A DNA stretch of 64,000 bases from Solwaraspora sp. WMMA2065. Lineage in GTDB: Bacteria; Actinomycetota; Actinomycetes; Mycobacteriales; Micromonosporaceae. The position numbers and the translations under genes are program-made. The notes under the pieces were generated by a model, which did no database searches, was not told where the DNA came from, and saw nothing but the letters and a program-made list of their open reading frames with translations. Shown here in pieces: positions 11,048 through 31,164 of this stretch (the stretch's first letter is position 1; each line of letters starts with the position of its first letter). The stretch spans positions 62,001 through 126,000 of the forward strand of contig NZ_CP128361.1 in the NCBI RefSeq assembly GCF_030345075.1. The letters run 5' to 3'.

Positions 11048-11438
11048 TGGCCGCCTCGACCAGCACGACGATGGTCAACGCGGTGGCACCGACACCGACA
11101 CACATCGCGAGGAACGCCGGAAACCGGGACGCCGGTAGGTCGGTGCCCAACCGCATGGCCCGCTCGGTACGGGACCAGTGGTCGACCGCCCGCAGCGCGA
11201 CGGTCCCGCCGAGCAGCAGCAGGGTCACCGCCAGCCCTTCCCGAAGGTGGGCCACGGACAGCTCAGGCAGGAACTGCGCGATGGCCAGCCCGCCGGCGAC
11301 CAACGCCAGGGCGGTCCGGATCCAGGCCAGGAAGGTCCGCTCGTTCGCCAGCGAGAACCGGTAGTCGGGCGCGGTGCCGACCCGGCGCAGCTGCTGGGGA
11401 TCGAACCACCGGCGCAGCGCACTCCACACGTGGATCAT
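11040..11438 (-). CDS. DUF202 (YidH-like) membrane protein
   Basis: A 132-residue inner-membrane protein. The motif FSLANERTFLAWIRTALALVAGG (two adjacent short parts, from about residue 28) is the classical YidH/DUF202 signature, followed by three membrane helices. It is the upstream partner of a second DUF202 protein, with an 8-nt overlap. It is divergent from the gene at 11463. No function is established for the family. Confidence 0.85.
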   Translation of the reverse strand: MIHVWSALRRWFDPQQLRRVGTAPDYRFSLANERTFLAWIRTALALVAGGLAIAQFLPELSVAHLREGLAVTLLLLGGTVALRAVDHWSRTERAMRLGTDLPASRFPAFLAMCVGVGATALTIVVLVEAASG

Positions 11439-11448
11439 TATCGCCGAC

Positions 11449-11454
11449 TAGACT
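11449..11454 (+). promoter_or_regulatory. -10 element for leaderless gene at 11463
   Basis: TAGACT ends 8 nt before GTG 11463, with no Shine-Dalgarno between them; a leaderless transcript is expected. Confidence 0.5.
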
Positions 11455-11462
11455 CACCGTCT

Positions 11463-11867
11463 GTGGCCGAGCTGACCGATGACGAGCGCAGCACACTGAA
11501 GACCGGTGCTTTCGGTGCCGTCTACCTGGTGTCGGCTGCGGACCCGGGGCTGGTGTCGATGGTCCGGGAGAGCTTCGCTGCCTCGGACGTGTTCGCCGGG
11601 ACGTCGGGTCTGGTGAACGACGTGCTGACCAGCGGCGAGTTGCCCAAGTTGGCACGGGACACGCCGGAGGCGGTGGAGCAGTTGGTGCTGCCGGCGCTGC
11701 GGCAGTCGGTGGCGGTGCTCACCGCGAAGGCCCCGCACGACCTGGAGCACTACCGGTCGGCGGTGACCGAGGCGGTCGACCGGGTAGCGCGGGCCGCGTC
11801 CGGGGTCGACCCGGCGGAGACGGCGATGATCTCCAAGATCAGGCAGGCGTTGGCCACTCCCTCCTGA
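11463..11867 (+). CDS. Conserved hypothetical protein
   Basis: A 134-residue soluble, mainly helical protein that I do not recognise by function. It opens with AELTDDERSTLKTGAFGAVYLVSAADPG and ends ETAMISKIRQALATPS; the GAFGAVYLVSAA segment is the most distinctive part. No membrane segment, metal motif or nucleotide motif is visible. The GTG start is placed 8 nt after a TAGACT hexamer, arguing for leaderless expression. It is divergent from the DUF202 pair. Confidence 0.65.
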   Translation: MAELTDDERSTLKTGAFGAVYLVSAADPGLVSMVRESFAASDVFAGTSGLVNDVLTSGELPKLARDTPEAVEQLVLPALRQSVAVLTAKAPHDLEHYRSAVTEAVDRVARAASGVDPAETAMISKIRQALATPS

Positions 11868-11930
11868 CCGGTCCGTCCCCCTGCTGACCAGGGCGGTCGT
11901 ACGGTCCGGCCGGCCCGTCGGTGGGGCCGT

Positions 11931-11958
11931 TTGGCCCTTGGCTACTTGCGGGTAACAT
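11931..11958 (+). promoter_or_regulatory. Candidate promoter of etfBA
   Basis: TTGGCC (11931-11936) and TAACAT (11953-11958) with a 16-nt spacer lie upstream of etfB. The leader of roughly 100 nt ends with GGAGGGG about 12 nt before the ATG. Confidence 0.35.
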
Positions 11959-12070
11959 GGCGGGTGGGGCATTCCACAGCGGTGCTCGGTTGACCGATCG
12001 TTAAGGAAAGCGGCAGGCTGCGCCGAGAGTGGTAGAGCAGCACCACCTACAGGAGGGGTGTCGAAGCGCG

Positions 12071-12850
12071 ATGAACATCGTCGTACTCGTCAAGCAGGTG
12101 CCCGATTCCGGCGCGGAACGCGCCCTGCGCGGTGACGACAACACCGTCGACCGCGGGTCGGCCAACAACGTGATCAATGAGATGGACGAGTACGCGATCG
12201 AGGAGGCGCTGCGGCTGCGGGAGGCCAACGGCGGTGAGGTGACCATCCTCACCATGGGCCCGGACCGCGCGGCCGAGTCGATCCGCAAGGCGCTGTCGAT
12301 GGGGCCGGACAAGGCGGTGCACGTCGTCGACGACGCCCTGCACGGCTCCTGCGCGGTCGCCACCTCCAAGGTCCTCGCCGCGGCGCTCGGCACCCTCGGG
12401 GCGGATCTGATCCTCTGCGGTGCCGAGTCCACCGACGGGCGGGTGCAGGTGATGCCGCACATGCTCGCCGAACGGCTCGGCATCGCCGCCCTGACTGGCG
12501 CCCGCAAGCTGACCGTCGACGGCGGCACGCTCACCGTCGAACGGCAGAGCGAAGAGGGCTACGAGGTGGTCAGCGCCGCCACCCCGGCGGTGGTCTCGGT
12601 GTGGGACACCATCAACGAGCCGCGCTACCCCTCGTTCAAGGGGATCATGGCGGCGAAGAAGAAGCCGGTGCAGAGCCTGTCCCTGGCCGATCTGGGGGTG
12701 GCCGCCAGCGAGGTCGGCTTCGACGGGGCGACCAGTGAGGTCGTCGAGCACCACAAGCGCCCACCACGGTCGGCGGGGCAGAAGGTCGTCGACGACGGCG
12801 AGGCCGGCGTACGGCTGGTCGAGTTCCTGGCGTCCGAGAAGTTCGTGTGA
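12071..12850 (+). CDS. etfB: Electron transfer flavoprotein beta subunit
   Basis: Beta subunit (FixA family) of the heterodimeric flavoprotein that takes electrons from acyl-CoA dehydrogenases. 259 residues, normal length. It begins MNIVVLVKQVPDSG and contains DEYAIEEALRLRE, the AMP-binding region around GAESTDGRVQVMPHMLAERLG, and the conserved VVSVWDTINEPRYPSFKGIMAAKKK near residue 178. ATG at 12071 is the family start. It is followed after 14 nt by etfA, forming the usual etfBA operon. Confidence 0.95.
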   Translation: MNIVVLVKQVPDSGAERALRGDDNTVDRGSANNVINEMDEYAIEEALRLREANGGEVTILTMGPDRAAESIRKALSMGPDKAVHVVDDALHGSCAVATSKVLAAALGTLGADLILCGAESTDGRVQVMPHMLAERLGIAALTGARKLTVDGGTLTVERQSEEGYEVVSAATPAVVSVWDTINEPRYPSFKGIMAAKKKPVQSLSLADLGVAASEVGFDGATSEVVEHHKRPPRSAGQKVVDDGEAGVRLVEFLASEKFV

Positions 12851-12864
12851 GCGGGGAGGTTGAC

Positions 12865-13827
12865 ATGGCTGAGGTTCTCGTTGTCGTCGAGGCCACCGGT
12901 GAGTTCGGCGTCAAGAAGGTCACCCTGGAACTGCTGACCCTGGCCCGTAAGCTGGGCGGCGAGGTGTCCGCGGTGGTGCTCGGCGGGCCGGGTGCGGCCG
13001 CCGCGATGACCGACAAGCTCGGTGAGTACGGCGCCAGCAAGGTGTACGCCGCCGAGAGCGAGGAGATCGACGGCTACCTGGTCGCTCCGAAGGTGACCGT
13101 GCTGGCCGAGCTGATCGGCCGGGTGCAGCCCGGCGCGGTGCTGCTCGCCTCCTCGCAGGAGGGCAAGGAGATCGCCGGTCGGCTCGCCGTACGGCTGGAC
13201 AACGGCCTGCTGACCGACGTGGTCGACCTGGCCGCCGACGGCACGGCGACCCAGATCGCGTTCGCCGGCGCCACCATCGTCACTTCCCGGGTCACCCGGG
13301 GCCTGCCGTTGGTGACGCTGCGGCCCAACTCGGTGGCGCCCGAGCCGGCCCCGGCCACCCCGCAGGTGGAGCAGGTGCAGGTGCAGGTCGCCGACTCCGA
13401 CAAGCTGGCCAAGGTGGTCGAGCGGGTCGCCGAGCAGTCCGGCTCCCGGCCGGAGCTCACCGAGGCGTCCGTGGTCGTCTCGGGCGGGCGCGGTGTCGGC
13501 AGCGGCGACAACTTCAAACTGGTCGAGGAGCTCGCCGACCTGCTCGGCGGCGCGGTGGGCGCCTCCCGGGCCGCGGTCGACTCCGGGTTCTATCCGCATC
13601 AGTTCCAGGTGGGGCAGACCGGCAAGACCGTCTCCCCACAGCTGTACGTGGCGCTGGGCATCTCCGGGGCGATCCAGCACCGGGCCGGGATGCAGACCGC
13701 GAAGACCATCGTGGCGGTCAACAAGGACGGTGAGGCGCCGATCTTCGAGCTCGCCGACTTCGGTGTGGTTGGTGACCTGAACAAGGTGGTCCCGCAGGCG
13801 GCCGAGGAGATCCGCAAGCGCAAGTGA
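12865..13827 (+). CDS. etfA: Electron transfer flavoprotein alpha subunit
   Basis: Alpha subunit (FixB family), 320 residues, binding FAD in its C-terminal domain. Seen: [20 protein letters not shown] at the start, [20 protein letters not shown] near 208, [25 protein letters not shown], the FAD motif [18 protein letters not shown] near 262, and [27 protein letters not shown] at 12865 with GGGGAGG (12853-12859) is preferred over the GTG overlapping etfB. The next genes are in sulfur transfer, so there is no obvious fixed electron donor nearby. Confidence 0.95.
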
Positions 13828-22402: not shown

Positions 22403-22702
22403 ATGGCCGCCATCTCCCGCGAAGAGGTCGCGCACCTGGCGCGACTGTCGCGGCTGGCCGTGACCGAGGACGAACTGGCGACGTTCGCCGGCCAGCTCGA
22501 CGTCATCCTGCAGTCCGTGGCCCGGATCGGCGAGGTCGCCGCCGACGACATCCCGCCCACCTCGCACTCGGTGCCGCTGACCAACGTGCTGCGCGACGAC
22601 GTCGTCATCCCCGGCCTGGACCGCGACGCCGCGCTCGCCGCCGCCCCGGACGCCGAGGACGGCCGGTTCCGGGTGCCGCGCATCCTGGACGAGGAGGTCT
22701 GA
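22403..22702 (+). CDS. gatC: Asp/Glu-tRNA amidotransferase subunit C
   Basis: Small subunit (99 residues) of the GatCAB complex that converts Glu-tRNA(Gln) and Asp-tRNA(Asn) to the amidated forms. It shows the family start [20 protein letters not shown], the central [14 protein letters not shown], and the late P-T-S-H-S-V-P-L-(x)-N-V-L-R-D-D motif. It is the first gene of the gat unit, with gatA starting 3 nt after its stop. Confidence 0.95.
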
Positions 22703-22705
22703 ACC

Positions 22706-24184
22706 ATGTCCGAACTCACCGGGATGACCGCCGCGCAGCTGGCCGGGCTGATCGCCGCCGGCGACACCAGCGCCGTCGAAGTGACCCGCGCCCACCTGGA
22801 CCGGATCGCCGGCGTCGACGAGCGGGTGCACGCCTACCTGCACGTCGACGCCGACGGGGCGCTCGCCGCCGCGCAGGCCGTCGACACCGCCCGCGCCGCC
22901 GGGCAGCCGCTCGGCCCGCTGGCCGGCGTACCGATCGCGGTCAAGGACGTCGTCACCACCAAGGGCGTACCGACCACCGCCGGGTCGAAGATCCTCGACG
23001 GCTGGCGGCCACCGTACGACGCGACGATCGTCGCCCGGCTGCGCGCCGCCGGCATGCCGATCCTCGGCAAGACCAACATGGACGAGTTCGCGATGGGCTC
23101 GTCGACCGAGTACTCGGCGTACGGGCCGACGTACAACCCGTGGGACCTGACCCGGATCCCGGGCGGATCCGGCGGTGGCAGCGCGGCCGCGGTCGCCGGG
23201 TACGAAGCTCCACTGGCGATCGGCACCGACACCGGCGGCTCGATCCGCCAACCGGGCGCGGTCACCGGCACCGTCGGCGCCAAGCCGACCTACGGCGGCA
23301 CCTCCCGGTACGGGCTGATCGCCTTCTCCTCCTCGCTGGACACCCCTGGCCCGTGCGCCCGGACGGTGCTCGACGCGGCGCTGCTGCACGAGGCGATCGC
23401 CGGCCACGACCCGCATGACTCCACCTCGATCCCGGCCGCCGTGCCGCCGGTCGTCGAGGCGGCCCGTGCCGGTGCCTCCGGTGACCTGACCGGGGTGCGC
23501 CTCGGCCTGGTCACCCAGTTCGCCACCGGCGAGGGCGTCGAGCCGGGCGTCCTGGCCGCGTTCCGCGACGCGGTCGACGCGCTGACCAAGCTCGGGGCCG
23601 AGGTCGTCGAGGTCTCCTGCCCGCACTTCGACTACGCGCTACCGGCGTACTACCTGATCGCGCCGAGCGAATGCTCGTCCAACCTGGCCCGCTACGACGG
23701 CGTCCGGTACGGGCTGCGCAGCGGCGACGACGGCAACCGGTCGCTGGAAGAGGTCATGTCGCTGACCCGCGACCAGGGCTTCGGGCCGGAGGTCAAGCGG
23801 CGGATCATGCTCGGCACCTACGCGCTGTCCAGCGGCTACTACGACGCCTACTACGGGCAGGCGCAGAAGGTCCGTACCTTGATCACCCGCGACTTCACCG
23901 CCGCGTTCGAGCAGGTCGACGTGCTGATCTCGCCGACCACGCCGTTCGTGGCGTTCCCACTCGGGGCGCGCACCGCCGACCCGTACCAGATGTACCTGGC
24001 CGACCTGTTCACCATCCCGACCAACCTGTACGGCGGCCCGGCCATCTCGGTGCCGTGCGGGCTGGCCGACGGGCTGCCGGTCGGGTTGCAGATGATGGCG
24101 CCCACGATGGCCGACGACCGGATGTACCGGGTCGCGGCGGCCCTGGAGTCGGCGGTCGGCACCCTCACCCCGCCGGAGCTCTGA
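22706..24184 (+). CDS. gatA: Asp/Glu-tRNA amidotransferase subunit A (amidase)
   Basis: Glutaminase subunit that releases ammonia for GatB; 492 residues, normal length. The Ser-Ser-Lys triad is complete: Lys in [12 protein letters not shown] near 80, cis-Ser and nucleophile Ser in the Gly-rich [13 protein letters not shown] and [15 protein letters not shown] near 152-185. The C-terminal [19 protein letters not shown] is typical. It directly follows gatC. The gene that should come next, gatB, is displaced by a two-gene insertion. Confidence 0.96.
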
Positions 24185-24192
24185 GCCGCGAC

Positions 24193-25584
24193 GTGCTGAC
24201 CCGGATCGAGATCGACGGCTTCAAGTCGTTCCGCGACTTCACGCTGGACGTGCCGCCGTTTCTCGTGATCATCGGGCGGAACGCGGCCGGCAAGTCGAAC
24301 CTGTTCGACGCGATCCAGTTCCTGTCCCGGCTCGCCGATGATGGGCTGCTGGAGGCCGCTCAGCAGATGCGCGGGGAAGTACCCGATCTGTTCCATCGGC
24401 ACACCGACGGCACCCAGATGCCGGTGATGACCTTCGCCGTCGAGGTGCTGCTGGGGTCGTCGGTGACCGACGCATTCGGTGATACGGCCGAAGTGAATCA
24501 CTCTCGGCTGCGTTACGAGCTTGCGGTCGAGCTACGACTCACCAGCAGCAGCGGGACCCGTCGGCCGTACGTGGTACGGGAGGCGGCGTACCGGATCCCT
24601 AAGTCCGACGACGCTGCGTTGCGGGCACTGATCCCGCGATGGAAGCAGGTAACCAGCTATCGCGGGGGCGGTCGGGAACTGCTGGAGACCGAGCGCGATG
24701 AGCAGGGGCGTGCGATTTTCAGCATCCGGCAGCAGGGCAACCAGGGCCGCAAACGGAAACTGCCGGCGACAGCGGCGACCGCAACCGTGCTGTCCAGCCT
24801 GACCACCGCCACGGACTTCCCGCTGCTGTACGCGCTCAAGCGGGAGCTTCAGTCGTGGCGACTGCTGCACCTCGATCCCAGCGCGCTGCGTACCCCGGAT
24901 TCCTATGACGACCCGGACAGCCTCGCGCCCAACGGTGCCCACCTGGCCAACACGCTGCGTTACCTGGCCGCCGCGACGGGCACCGAGGACCGGCCGGAGG
25001 GCGCGTTGAACGACCTTTCCGCCGACGTATCCGAAGTGATACCGGGAGTGGTCCGGGTCCGGCTCGCCGAGGACGAGGCACGCCGGCAGCGGCAGGTCGA
25101 GGTCGTCACCCGCGACGAGGCACCGTTCTCGGCCCGGGTCGCGTCCGACGGGACGCTGCGCGCGATCGCGTTGCTCGCAGCACTCTACGACCCCCGTGGT
25201 GCCGGGCTGATCTGCTTCGAGGAGCCGGAGAACGGCATCTTCCCGCAACGGCTCGCCCAGTTCGTGCGGTACCTGCGGGCCCTGGTCGAACGGTCGTTGG
25301 AGTCGCGCGACGAAGCAGACGGCAATCGATTGACCCAGTTGATCCTGAGCAGCCACTCGCCTGCGATCTTGCGGGCGTTGGAACGCGGCGAGGACGGGGG
25401 ACGGCTCCATGCGGTCTACCTGGACGTGGTGACCCGGGTGCGCAGGGGCGAACCGCGCAGCCGGATCACCCGTAGCCGCCTGATCGGTGGTGATCAGCTT
25501 GCGTTGGATCTCGAAGATCCCAGCGGTGTGGTCACCAAGGCAGAGATTGCCGAATTCGAGGTCCTGGAGACGCTGGATCGCTGA
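24193..25584 (+). CDS. AAA family ATPase (AAA_21/OLD-like), putative defence module
   Basis: A 463-residue SMC/ABC-like ATPase. Seen: LTRIEIDGFKSFRDFTLDV at the N-terminus, Walker A GRNAAGKS (residues 28-35), a long central insertion, Walker B LICFEEPENGIFPQRL near 340, and the H-loop LILSSHSPAIL near 382. This fold (RecF/OLD type, AAA_15/AAA_21) is used by many anti-phage ATPases. It starts with GTG 8 nt after gatA, inside the gatCAB region, and overlaps the next gene as TGATG, so the two form one functional unit. Codons are less strictly GC-ending than in gatA or gatB (my reading, not computed), suggesting transfer. No nuclease or TOPRIM domain is fused; the partner appears to supply it. 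Confidence 0.85.
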   Translation: MLTRIEIDGFKSFRDFTLDVPPFLVIIGRNAAGKSNLFDAIQFLSRLADDGLLEAAQQMRGEVPDLFHRHTDGTQMPVMTFAVEVLLGSSVTDAFGDTAEVNHSRLRYELAVELRLTSSSGTRRPYVVREAAYRIPKSDDAALRALIPRWKQVTSYRGGGRELLETERDEQGRAIFSIRQQGNQGRKRKLPATAATATVLSSLTTATDFPLLYALKRELQSWRLLHLDPSALRTPDSYDDPDSLAPNGAHLANTLRYLAAATGTEDRPEGALNDLSADVSEVIPGVVRVRLAEDEARRQRQVEVVTRDEAPFSARVASDGTLRAIALLAALYDPRGAGLICFEEPENGIFPQRLAQFVRYLRALVERSLESRDEADGNRLTQLILSSHSPAILRALERGEDGGRLHAVYLDVVTRVRRGEPRSRITRSRLIGGDQLALDLEDPSGVVTKAEIAEFEVLETLDR

Positions 25585-26216
25585 TGCGCTACCTCTCGAC
25601 CGCACTGATCTCCGAAGGCCTCAGCGATGACCGCTTCCTGCCCCGGCTGCTGGCACGCTCACTGGAAGGACTGTGCCTGACCGAGTTCGATGAAACGGTG
25701 TACGTAGCCGACGTACAACCGTTGCGGGCCCGGTCCGGCCCGGCAGGTATCGGTGATGTGATCAGCTTGGCCGACCGCAGCGACGGCGCCTTCACGATTG
25801 TCTTCTTTCACCGAGACCAGGGTGCGAACGCTGAACGGGTACACCGGGAGTGGCTGGAACCGCTCCGGAAGCGTTGGGCCGACCGCCGGGAGCAACTCGT
25901 CGCGGTCGTCCCGGTCCGGGAGACCGAGGCCTGGCTGCTCGCCGACGGGCAGGCACTGCGCAACGCCCTCGGTGTCCAGTGGACCGATGTCGAGATGGGG
26001 CTCCCCGGGAGCCCTCGTCAGGTGGAGCAGATCGCCGACCCGAAGAAAGTGCTCAACGACGTGACGCGCCGGGTCAGCCGGTCAGTCGGGGACCACCTCG
26101 GCCAGCTTGGCGAGCTGGTGGATCTGGAAAGGCTGCAGCAGGTACCGGCGTACCGGCGGTGGTGGGACGACACCCGGCAGGCTCTCGTGGCACTCGGTTA
26201 CCGGCCGGGTCGATGA
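25584..26216 (+). CDS. DUF4276-type TOPRIM-like protein, partner of the ATPase
   Basis: A 210-residue protein. It opens ALISEGLSDDRFLPRLLARSL, where the early Ser-Glu-Gly fits the first TOPRIM acidic residue. It then has FTIVFFHRDQGANAERVHREW, with an Asp at the expected second position, and VPVRETEAWLLADGQALRNAL, the conserved Glu-x-Glu-Ala-Trp-Leu-Leu-Ala-Asp of DUF4276 proteins. DUF4276 is known mostly as the downstream partner of AAA ATPases. Start ATG 25584 overlaps the ATPase stop by one base. A nuclease or nucleic-acid role is inferred from the TOPRIM resemblance; nothing here proves activity. Confidence 0.72.
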   Translation: MRYLSTALISEGLSDDRFLPRLLARSLEGLCLTEFDETVYVADVQPLRARSGPAGIGDVISLADRSDGAFTIVFFHRDQGANAERVHREWLEPLRKRWADRREQLVAVVPVRETEAWLLADGQALRNALGVQWTDVEMGLPGSPRQVEQIADPKKVLNDVTRRVSRSVGDHLGQLGELVDLERLQQVPAYRRWWDDTRQALVALGYRPGR

Positions 26217-26235: not shown

Positions 26236-26241
26236 TAGGCT
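26236..26241 (+). promoter_or_regulatory. -10 element in front of gatB
   Basis: TAGGCT lies in the 63-nt gap between the inserted module and gatB, 38 nt before ATG 26280. It could let gatB be transcribed independently of the insertion. No good -35 is visible. Confidence 0.4.
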
Positions 26242-26279: not shown

Positions 26280-27785
26280 ATGAGCACGACCGCGTTGCCC
26301 ACGTACGAGGATGTCGTCGCCCGCTACGAGCCGGTGATCGGCCTGGAGACGCACGTCGAGCTGGGCACCAACACGAAGATGTTCTGCGGCTGCCCGACCG
26401 GGTTCGGCGCCGAGCCGAACACCCAGGTCTGCCCGGTCTGCCTGGGCCTGCCCGGCTCGTTGCCGGTGGCGAACAAGGCGGCGATCGAGGCGACGATCCG
26501 CATAGGGCTGGCACTGAACTGCTCGATCGCCGACTGGTGCCGGTTCGCCCGGAAGAACTACTTCTACCCGGACATGCCGAAGAACTACCAGATCAGCCAG
26601 TACGACGAGCCGCTGTGCGTGGACGGCTGGCTCGACGTCGAGGTCGACGGCGAGCTGGTGCGGATCGGCATCGAGCGGGTGCATCTGGAGGAGGACACCG
26701 GCAAGACGCTGCACGTCGGCGGCGCGACCGGGCGCATTCACGGTGCGACCGAGTCGCTTGTCGACTACAACCGGGCGGGTATCCCGCTGGTGGAGATCGT
26801 CACCAAGCCGATCCCCGGCACCGGGGACCGGGCACCGCAAGTGGCCCGCGCGTACGTCACCGAGCTGCGGGACGTGATCCGCTCGTTGGGCGTGTCCGAC
26901 GTACGGATGGAGCAGGGTTCGCTGCGCTGCGACGTGAACACCTCGCTGACCCCGGTCGGGCAGACCGAGTGGGGCACCCGCACCGAGACCAAGAACGTCA
27001 ACTCGCTGCGGTCGGTGGAGCGGGCGGTACGCGCGGAGATGCTGCGCCAGGCGTCGGTGCTCGACGCCGGTGGCCGGATCGTGCAGGAGACCCGGCACTT
27101 CCACGAGGACAGCGGCGACACCACGTCCGGCCGGTCCAAGGAGACCGCCACCGACTACCGCTACTTCCCGGAGCCGGACCTGGTGCCGCTCGCCCCGGAC
27201 GCCGCCTGGGTGGCCGAGCTGAAGGCGGCCCTGCCGGAGCTGCCCCGGGTGCACCGCAAGCGGCTGCAGGAGCAGTGGGGGCTGACCGACCACGACATGC
27301 AGTCGGTGGTCAACGCCGGGGCGGTCGAGCTGATCGAGCAGACCATCGCCGCCGGCACCACCCCGGCCGGCGCCCGCAAGTGGTGGCTGGGTGAGCTGGC
27401 CCGCCGGGCCAACGAGTCCGGTGTGGAGCTGGCCGCGCTCGGGGTTACCCCGGCGCACGTGGCCGAACTGCAGGGGCTGGTCGACTCGGGCAAGCTCAAC
27501 GACAAGCTGGCCCGTACCGTCCTGGAGGCGGTGGCCGCCGGGGAAGGCACGCCGACCGAGGTGATGACCGCGCGCGGCCTGGAGGTGGTCTCCGACACCG
27601 GTGCGTTGACCGCCGCCGTCGACGAGGCGATCGCCGCCAACCCGGACATCGCGGCGAAGGTCCGCGACGGCAAGGTCGCGGCGGCCGGTGCGCTGGTCGG
27701 CGCGGTGATGAAGACGACCCGGGGCCAGGCGGACGCGCGTACCGTCCGGGAGCTGATCCTGTCCCGCCTCGGCGCACAGGGCTGA
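26280..27785 (+). CDS. gatB: Asp/Glu-tRNA amidotransferase subunit B
   Basis: tRNA-binding kinase/amidotransferase subunit, 501 residues. Seen: [23 protein letters not shown] at the N-terminus (split into motif plus zinc cysteines), the second cysteine pair [30 protein letters not shown], and the C-terminal YqeY-like tail ([14 protein letters not shown]). Start ATG 26280 has GGAG about 7 nt upstream. It normally follows gatA directly; here it is 2.1 kb away behind an ATPase/TOPRIM pair and has a possible promoter of its own. Confidence 0.96.
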
Positions 27786-29775: not shown

Positions 29776-31164
29776 GTGAGAATACGCCAGGACGCGCCGG
29801 TGGTGCGCGCGACGTTCGACGATCCGAATCTGGTGTCGTGTGCCGGTCTCGTTCCGGTGATGCGCCTGGCCGAGCAGGCCGGTCTGCATGACGCGGTCGC
29901 CGACCGGGTGCGGCTGCCGACGGACAAGGGCGCGAACCCCGCCGGGAAGGTCGCCACGGTCGTGGCGGGGATGCTCGCGGGCGCGGACAGCATCGACGAC
30001 CTCGACATCGCCCGGCACGGTGGCATGCGGTCGCTGTTCGGCAGCGTGTACGCGCCGTCGACGCTCGGGTCGTTCCTGCGTACGTTCACCCACGGGCACG
30101 TACGGCAGTTACAGGCCGCCGCCCGCGACACCCTGATCGGTCTGACCGGCCGGGCACCGATCCTGACCGGCGCCGACACCCTGTGCTTCGTGGACATCGA
30201 CTCCATGCTGCGGCGGGTGTACGGCAAGCAGAAGCAGGGCATCGGGTTCGGCCACGCCAAGGTCGGCGGCTACAACGTCTACCTGCGCGGCTACAACCCC
30301 CTGGTCGCGACGCTGTCCACCCCGCTGTCCGCGCCGGTGATCGCCGCCACGAGGCTGCGGTCGGGTAACGCCGGCTCGTCCCGGGGCGCCGCCACCATGA
30401 TCGCCGAGGCCATCACGACCGCCCGGGCATGCGGCGCTTCGGGGGAGATCATGGTGCGAGCGGACTCGGCGTTCTACGCCAAGACGGTGATCAGCGGCTG
30501 CCGGCGTCGTGGCGTGCGGTTCTCGGTCACCTGCCGCATCGACCCGAAGATCCGCGCCGCGTGCGACGGCATCGCCGCCGACCAGTGGGTCGACATCACC
30601 TATCCGCAGGCCGTCCGGGACGAAGACGCCGGCCGGTGGATCTCCGACGCGCAGATCGCCGAAACCACGTACACCGCGTTCGCCGGCACCCGACACGAGG
30701 CGACCGCCCGGCTGATCGTGCGCCGCGTCCGCCGCGACGACCCGCAACAGATCCCCGGCCAGGACGAACTCCTACCGACCTACCGGTACCACGCCGTGTT
30801 CACCGACAGCCCGTACACCCTCGTACAGGCCGAAGCCCAGCACCGGCAACACGCGATCATCGAGCAGGTCAACGCCGACCTGATCGCCGGCCCCCTCGCC
30901 CACCTGCCCTCCGGACACTTCAGCGCCAACGACGCCTGGCTGACCTGCGCCGCGATCACGCACAACCTCACCCGCGCCGCCGGACACCTCGCCGCGGGCA
31001 CCTGGTCGACCGCCAGACCCGCCACCATCCGGACCCGGATCATCACCGTCGCAGCCCGCCTCGCCCACCGGGCCCGCACCATCCACCTACACCTGCCCGA
31101 GTACTGGCCCTGGCAGGCGGCGTTCGACAACCTGTTCACCGCCGTCCAGCCGGCACCCGGCTGA
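29776..31164 (+). CDS. IS1380 family transposase
   Basis: DDE transposase of 462 residues. It shows the IS1380 pattern: VRIRQDAPVVRATFDDPNLV at the start, an acidic residue in LCFVDIDSMLRRVYGKQKQG, EIMVRADSAFYAKTVISGCR as second catalytic block, and a C-terminal HFSANDAWLTCAAITHNL helical region. GTG at 29776 is chosen for its position after GAGAGGG. The frame is complete with no internal stops, so the element may be active. Confidence 0.93.
   Translation: MRIRQDAPVVRATFDDPNLVSCAGLVPVMRLAEQAGLHDAVADRVRLPTDKGANPAGKVATVVAGMLAGADSIDDLDIARHGGMRSLFGSVYAPSTLGSFLRTFTHGHVRQLQAAARDTLIGLTGRAPILTGADTLCFVDIDSMLRRVYGKQKQGIGFGHAKVGGYNVYLRGYNPLVATLSTPLSAPVIAATRLRSGNAGSSRGAATMIAEAITTARACGASGEIMVRADSAFYAKTVISGCRRRGVRFSVTCRIDPKIRAACDGIAADQWVDITYPQAVRDEDAGRWISDAQIAETTYTAFAGTRHEATARLIVRRVRRDDPQQIPGQDELLPTYRYHAVFTDSPYTLVQAEAQHRQHAIIEQVNADLIAGPLAHLPSGHFSANDAWLTCAAITHNLTRAAGHLAAGTWSTARPATIRTRIITVAARLAHRARTIHLHLPEYWPWQAAFDNLFTAVQPAPG

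Follow-up and report, generated by a model that had tools for sequence, protein, structure and literature searches.

Why should two genes, encoding an ABC/OLD-type ATPase and a small DUF4276 protein, lie between gatA and gatB in the amidotransferase operon of Solwaraspora sp. WMMA2065? The stretch analysed, hereafter the window, comprises 64,000 nucleotides of contig NZ_CP128361.1 (positions 62,001 to 126,000, forward strand), within which the pair occupies positions 24193 to 26216. An original prediction, made from the letters alone, held that the two genes are a horizontally acquired, possibly defensive module that uses a housekeeping operon for its expression. Comparison with related genomes leads us to regard the pair as probably a resident and swappable immune cassette of the HEC-01 type, an ATPase with its effector, housed in that operon.

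The family of the two proteins gives the first part of the answer. The ATPase (24193–25584, plus strand, 463 amino acids from a GTG start) matches Pfam AAA_21 at an E-value of 7.1e-29 and 102.3 bits (cut-off 27), while its partner (25584–26216, plus strand, 210 amino acids from an ATG start) matches Pfam DUF4276 at 1.5e-8 and 35.5 bits (cut-off 30.2), its only other Pfam match, to RuvA_C, falling below the cut-off. In PADLOC the ATPase is HEC-01A (PDLC04184, 5.8e-194), with residues 1–460 of 463 aligned to positions 1–461 of the 464 in the profile, and the product of the adjoining gene is HEC-01B (PDLC04210, 9.8e-87, residues 1–207 of 210). The suggestion of a possibly defensive role thus gains substance, in that both proteins belong to a candidate defence family and each matches the single HEC-01A or HEC-01B profile over its full length. 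HEC stands for Hma-embedded candidate, and in the passages available from the source several HECs, including HEC-06, are active against phage, while HEC-01 is not named in those passages (PMC12988326). The window pair differs from that setting in sitting in a gat operon rather than in an Hma system or a defence island; embedding in an Hma or defence locus is the origin of the HEC-01 name and is not known as a rule of the profile set. No description of a HEC-01 pair resident at gat was found in the portions of the literature retrieved on HEC-01 and Hma, on DUF4276, and on gatA, gatB and antiphage systems.

The arrangement of the locus is as originally read. All five genes lie on the plus strand in the order gatC, gatA, ATPase, DUF4276, gatB, with 8 nt between the gatA stop and the ATPase start and a one-base overlap (TGATG) between the two genes of the pair. 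The upstream neighbour gatA, for amidotransferase subunit A, occupies 22706–24184 and is 96–99% identical within the genus, and gatB, for subunit B, occupies 26280–27785 as an open reading frame conserved in the genus; gatC (22403–22702), an open reading frame conserved in the six other genomes of the genus, takes its name from the original prediction and from the gatA and gatB context. All six motifs named at the outset are present, and their core residues are kept in relatives, as judged from 38 ATPase and 43 DUF4276 sequences. Those of the ATPase are Walker A GRNAAGKS (residues 28–35, 24274–24297), in which G28, N30, G33, K34 and S35 are invariant, Walker B LICFEEPEN (residues 339–347, 25207–25233), in which E343, E344, E346 and N347 are invariant, and the H-loop SSHSPAIL (residues 386–393, 25348–25371) with an invariant H388. 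The DUF4276 protein carries SEG (residues 10–12, 25611–25619; E11 and G12 invariant), HRDQG (residues 76–80, 25809–25823; H76 and D78 invariant) and ETEAWLLAD (residues 113–121, 25920–25946; E115, W117 and D121 invariant), all motifs reading on the plus strand.

Structural models were built for both proteins from alignments of 38 of the 59 listed ATPases and 43 of the 52 listed DUF4276 sequences. The ATPase model has a predicted local distance difference test score (pLDDT) of 90.8, and its nearest solved folds are SMC heads together with PtuA of Septu and retrons, at E about 1e-12. A head resembling those of SMC and Rad50 would also suit a complex for DNA repair or chromosome maintenance, a reading that we consider extremely improbable, given that the best whole-protein profiles are defence candidates, that the protein has only 463 amino acids with no long helical arm in the model, and that the pair is patchy and fast-evolving. 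For the DUF4276 protein the model (pLDDT 95.9, predicted template modelling score 0.91) has a first half in which strands alternate with helices; E11 immediately follows predicted strand 1, H76 and D78 close predicted strand 3, and the ETEAW block comes next to predicted strand 4, on its far side. A TOPRIM domain has a glutamate after strand 1 and a DxD motif after strand 3. The predicted layout recalls this arrangement, although the analysis does not confirm the “TOPRIM-like” label given earlier: Foldseek returned no match to the model in PDB or BFVD at E ≤0.001, and hhalign against 16 OLD-type TOPRIM sequences was not significant under either of two reference rows (P 0.057 and 0.93). We therefore prefer to treat TOPRIM as a lead and not as a result.

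Several described immune systems share part of this design, each with its own point of departure. In PARIS, AriA and AriB are likewise an ATPase and a small partner; the ATPase is of the AAA_21/AAA_15 type, and the AriA profile matches the window ATPase at 6.3e-30. AriB, however, has DUF4435, whereas PF14491 does not match the window partner at E ≤0.1, the resemblance of the partner to a TOPRIM layout being confined to its E11 and HxD motifs, and none of 197 genomes of the class gave a DUF4435 (AriB) match. The predicted ATPase fold has PtuA structures of Septu and retrons among its best matches, but the partner of PtuA is the HNH nuclease PtuB, in place of which the window has DUF4276. Gabija GajA and the OLD nucleases have an OLD-type ATPase in common with the pair; in contrast to these, the window ATPase is without a TOPRIM match or tail, the partner is followed by gatB rather than by the GajB helicase, and the GajA profile matches are partial (38 bits). 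ATPase and DUF4276 do form single open reading frames in two genomes, namely Sinosporangium album (L171 10001–12034, also L222) and G440 (L255 2184–4232). The NCBIfam models for MAD3 and MAD4 of MADS match the pair at 123 and 18.4 bits, far under their cut-offs of 420 and 160, and the window neighbours, which were not scanned with the MADS models, are gat and other conserved genes.

The second part of the answer is place. The genome searches scored only a few candidates per genome (8, 6, 5 or 4), so that the presence counts that follow are lower bounds. Within the genus the pair lies between gatA and gatB in four of seven genomes and is missing from the other three, and the surrounding 16–18 kb is otherwise conserved, apart from one further open reading frame. 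This frame (29776–31164, plus strand, 462 amino acids), which we take to be transposase-like, occurs in the window genome only, has no counterpart in the 16–18 kb of the six other genomes and looks like a recent insertion. Across Micromonosporaceae a DUF4276 match at E ≤1e-10 was obtained in 27 of 354 genomes, in 24 of which the pair or its remains directly follow gatA; in the other three, and for second copies in two genomes, what matched is a distant relative, and the flanks examined showed no gatA. Among Streptosporangiaceae an ATPase match at E ≤1e-20 was obtained in 80 of 250 genomes; at least 67 of the 250 have both proteins in the gatA–gatB interval (44 + 20 + 3), a total that includes G908, G944 and G941, the last of which showed both proteins on a six-frame look. 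When 63 distinct genomes of this family were examined at the gat locus, both proteins were present in 62, and G838 holds an ATPase remnant alone. The same interval holds the pair in Kitasatospora sp. SolWspMP-SS2h, Sinosporangium album, S. siamense and Nonomuraea strains, and a class-wide search matched 16 of 306 genomes at E 1e-20, ten of them adjoining gatA (the window's own and nine Streptosporangiaceae) and six not next to gatA within the flanks examined. The spacing comparison with relatives that the original prediction called for thus shows a patchy pair, 24/354 and 67/250, and at the same time one spot held in three families.

That spot is narrowly defined. The distance from gatA to the ATPase could be measured in 76 of the 91 loci, a set in which one genome counts twice (as L176 and as L223); it is 1–30 nt in 46 loci, 31–100 nt in 28 and more than 100 nt in two. 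Wherever the pair could be placed, it comes first after gatA and reads in the same direction, any other cargo lying downstream. By tblastn at E 1e-3, none of 75 non-gat loci, cyanobacterial and proteobacterial ones included, had gatA, gatB or gatC in the DNA examined. A separate Streptosporangiaceae subfamily of ATPase and DUF4276 lies away from gat in 19 loci (L227–L245), sometimes in genomes that carry a gat-locus pair as well, and a distant ATPase relative with 27–34% identity lies elsewhere in the window's genome (G000 C1:6564179–6565159; L002, L003). An origin on a mobile element was considered and set aside, as tblastn of the ATPase matched only three of 72,556 plasmid records at a limit of 1e-20, two of them records of 4.6 and 11.9 Mb (Nonomuraea gerenzanensis, at 50% identity, is one of the two), and one of 50,697 phage records at a limit of 1e-10.

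The copies at this address also belong together by descent. In an ATPase tree of 144 rows, the 73 gat-locus rows, including three identical second copies, fall on one side of one branch and the 71 others on the opposite side, with moderate support of 83 in the Shimodaira–Hasegawa approximate likelihood ratio test (SH-aLRT); a smaller tree agrees (28 gat versus 53 other rows, SH-aLRT 84), and the DUF4276 tree parts gat rows from others at SH-aLRT 94. The 73 rows were assigned to three types; for 20 + 3 further Streptosporangiaceae loci the analysis covered placement at gat only. Type I, that of the window, is found in Micromonosporaceae, Sinosporangium, Kitasatospora and one Nonomuraea, and types II and III in Streptosporangiaceae. 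Laid on the DUF4276 tree, ATPase type needs two changes, the least possible; laid on the gatA/gatB tree it needs 14, and close gat sisters carry different types (L257/L265, L252/L271, L255/L266). The gatA/gatB tree was given all 86 of its 86 rows, G081, G337 and G032 not being among them, and the A2 row set was without L063 and L075. Since type follows the DUF4276 partner so closely and the gat flanks so poorly, the two proteins travel together and are swapped at a fixed address. The pair is therefore no family-wide, vertically inherited part of the operon, as most genomes are without it and its types disagree with the gat tree; its history looks like inheritance plus swapping at one address. 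Type II and type III pairs stand in tandem between gatA and gatB in G773 (L254).

Is the interval, then, simply a permissive landing site, and the pair a passenger like many others, not lastingly bound to it? The interval of Micromonosporaceae does host several unrelated genes (L114, L092, L075, L070 and related loci). Sixty pair-less genomes of this family were taken for their best gatB scores, not at random; four with no gatA in about 10 kb were dropped, and the remaining 56 gave 27 gaps shorter than 100 bp and 29 of at least 100 bp, 21 of the latter with predicted genes. In ten pair-less Streptosporangiaceae genomes gatA and gatB are nearly contiguous in six, while four hold 2.2–3.7 kb there without either protein. 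The cargo clusters, each named from one representative, include a He_PIG-domain protein at 17 loci, of which one has the pair too, as well as proteins that are Sortilin-like (4 loci) and weakly Yip1-like; an M1-peptidase protein is present at 5 loci, always beside the pair or its remains. Set against this variety are the constant position of the pair, first after gatA and codirectional, with other cargo downstream, and the count of gat-clade members elsewhere, zero among the 71 other rows, though the queries that gave those rows were built from gat-locus copies. The interval is permissive, yet the pair is the first gene after gatA wherever located, and we regard a mere landing site as unlikely.

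The pair-less members of the genus appear to carry traces of loss. The gatA–gatB junctions of G002, G004 and G005 are 41–43 bp long and match the first 19 nt of the ATPase gene, at the position of the ATPase start, with 17, 18 and 16 identities respectively, scores reached by 2, 3 and 1 of 5000 single-base shuffles. This match is joined to the last nucleotides before gatB, and each junction is probably a deletion scar, the gatB −10 box having been removed too. Insertion with a short target duplication within the genus was also considered; deletion is preferred because the empty sites hold, equally far from gatA, a stretch that comes from within the coding sequence. The DUF4276 frame is broken or missing in four of the 24 Micromonosporaceae copies (G353, G240, G337 and G032), three of which still match the ATPase over its full length, a pattern that a costly effector would predict; the DUF4276 copy of G063 is intact, at 206 amino acids. 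Within the genus the ratio of nonsynonymous to synonymous divergence (dN/dS) of the pair is 0.06–0.28, so that intact copies are under purifying selection.

These traces bear on the horizontal acquisition that was originally proposed, which in its strict form would mean that a defence module entered the gat operon of this lineage recently. Patchy presence speaks for it, as do the G+C content at third codon positions, 0.80–0.83 in the pair against 0.95–0.96 in the gat genes, and a synonymous divergence (dS) that, within the genus, is higher for the pair than for gatB by a factor of 1.7 to 5.2, a rise that fits exchange or weaker codon bias. The same place is nevertheless held by one clade in three families, the empty genus sites carry a probable gene remnant, and few plasmid or phage records match at the limits used. 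We consider this rival very unlikely: “recent” and “into this lineage” are largely refuted, absence within the genus looking like deletion, while the patchiness and compositional shift stand and lateral exchange at the same address is kept in the explanation that we favour.

How can a housekeeping operon accommodate such a cassette? A −10 box had been proposed for gatB at 26236, and TAGGCT is found there (26236–26241, plus strand), 44 nt 5′ of gatB, as a conserved motif and likely gatB promoter. TAGGCT lies within 110 nt of gatB in 43 of 48 gatA–gatB intervals of at least 100 bp, against none of 27 shorter ones and a shuffled rate of 1.7%; the open intervals divide into 16 of 19 that bear the pair and 27 of 29 others. 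This suggests that gatB uses its own start when the interval is open. The spacing of the pair and its gene overlap fit use of the gat operon, which supports the idea of expression through a housekeeping operon, and the pair is presumably transcribed by read-through from the gatCA promoter. At one locus, L166 of Micromonospora sp. NBRC 107566 (the genome of L077 and L023), DUF4276 and GatB form one open frame of 727 amino acids (11380–13560) with no stop between, within which GatB's own start codon lies.

Among the rivals, the most interesting would tie the pair functionally to GatCAB or its tRNAs. The pair would then serve host tRNA amidation or translation by acting on GatCAB or on tRNA-Gln and tRNA-Asn, for example in quality control or as a guard at amidation failure. 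Residence beside gatA in three families with one-clade grouping would fit it, as would an ATPase start no more than 100 nt from gatA in 74 of 76 loci and the DUF4276 frame that runs into GatB in L166. Systems of an ATPase plus an effector that cut tRNA also exist: AriB of PARIS is one such effector (PMC12409363) and Septu is another such system (PMC13096335). On the other side, the pair was not found in 330 of 354 Micromonosporaceae and 183 of 250 Streptosporangiaceae genomes, so that it is not needed for GatCAB; other genes fill the interval in many genomes, and relatives of both proteins lie away from gat in cyanobacteria, proteobacteria and others. We hold a host role of this kind to be improbable. 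We give a similarly small chance to the gat-locus clade being a GatCAB-linked immune guard, whose ATPase would read infection or failed tRNA amidation and release the DUF4276 effector. If that were true, the target of the effector would be tRNA-Gln and tRNA-Asn or another translation target, the place beside gatA would be functional, and phage pressure would keep the three old versions in play, trading places at that one address as the alleles of a multi-allelic resistance locus do.

Several observations count against the resident immune cassette that we favour. The neighbours are conserved chromosomal genes and form no defence island, HEC-01 is itself a candidate defence system, the anti-phage role of the pair being likewise putative, and the empty Foldseek search leaves the putative effector without a match among solved folds at the threshold used. 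The support of 83 for the gat-clade branch is modest, type I is not one clade on the DUF4276 tree, where L079, on a long branch, joins type III, and the gat tree itself could be disturbed by recombination of the flanks. Types II and III of Streptosporangiaceae are long branches that may be drawn together, according to a program warning on the ATPase tree, and a single settlement between gatA and gatB is for this reason favoured but not proven. The presumed scar could be older sequence that turned into a gene start, the three junctions are related and so are not three independent tests, and some of the frame breaks may be assembly errors.

Weighing these points, we still think in terms of a resident cassette, and would picture its working and history as follows. 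The ATPase would act as a sensor of infection or damage, and the DUF4276 protein as a metal-dependent effector, probably nuclease-like, that the ATPase holds back or switches on. The two genes would be translated together and transcribed from the gatCA promoter, and gatB transcribed from its own promoter, an arrangement under which the supply of GatB need not suffer from the cassette. The likeliest history begins with a single arrival in the gatA–gatB interval, in an ancestor of the actinomycete copies sampled, after which the cassette stayed. It would since have been lost at times by deletion and exchanged between lineages, always as a matched pair, probably by homologous recombination within the conserved genes on either side, gatA and gatB.

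The usual search for defence genes is directed at mobile islands, whereas the candidate immune pair described here keeps to one fixed chromosomal address, in the operon of a translation enzyme, in genomes from three families of actinomycetes, and deeply divergent versions of it are exchanged there. The locus offers a natural experiment, in that close flanks carry a different, a broken or no cassette, and it may serve to examine the role of HEC-01, the bond with gatA and the way in which swapping proceeds when no mobile element is evident. The findings also suggest that an immune module can reside in a housekeeping operon whose downstream gene keeps its own promoter.

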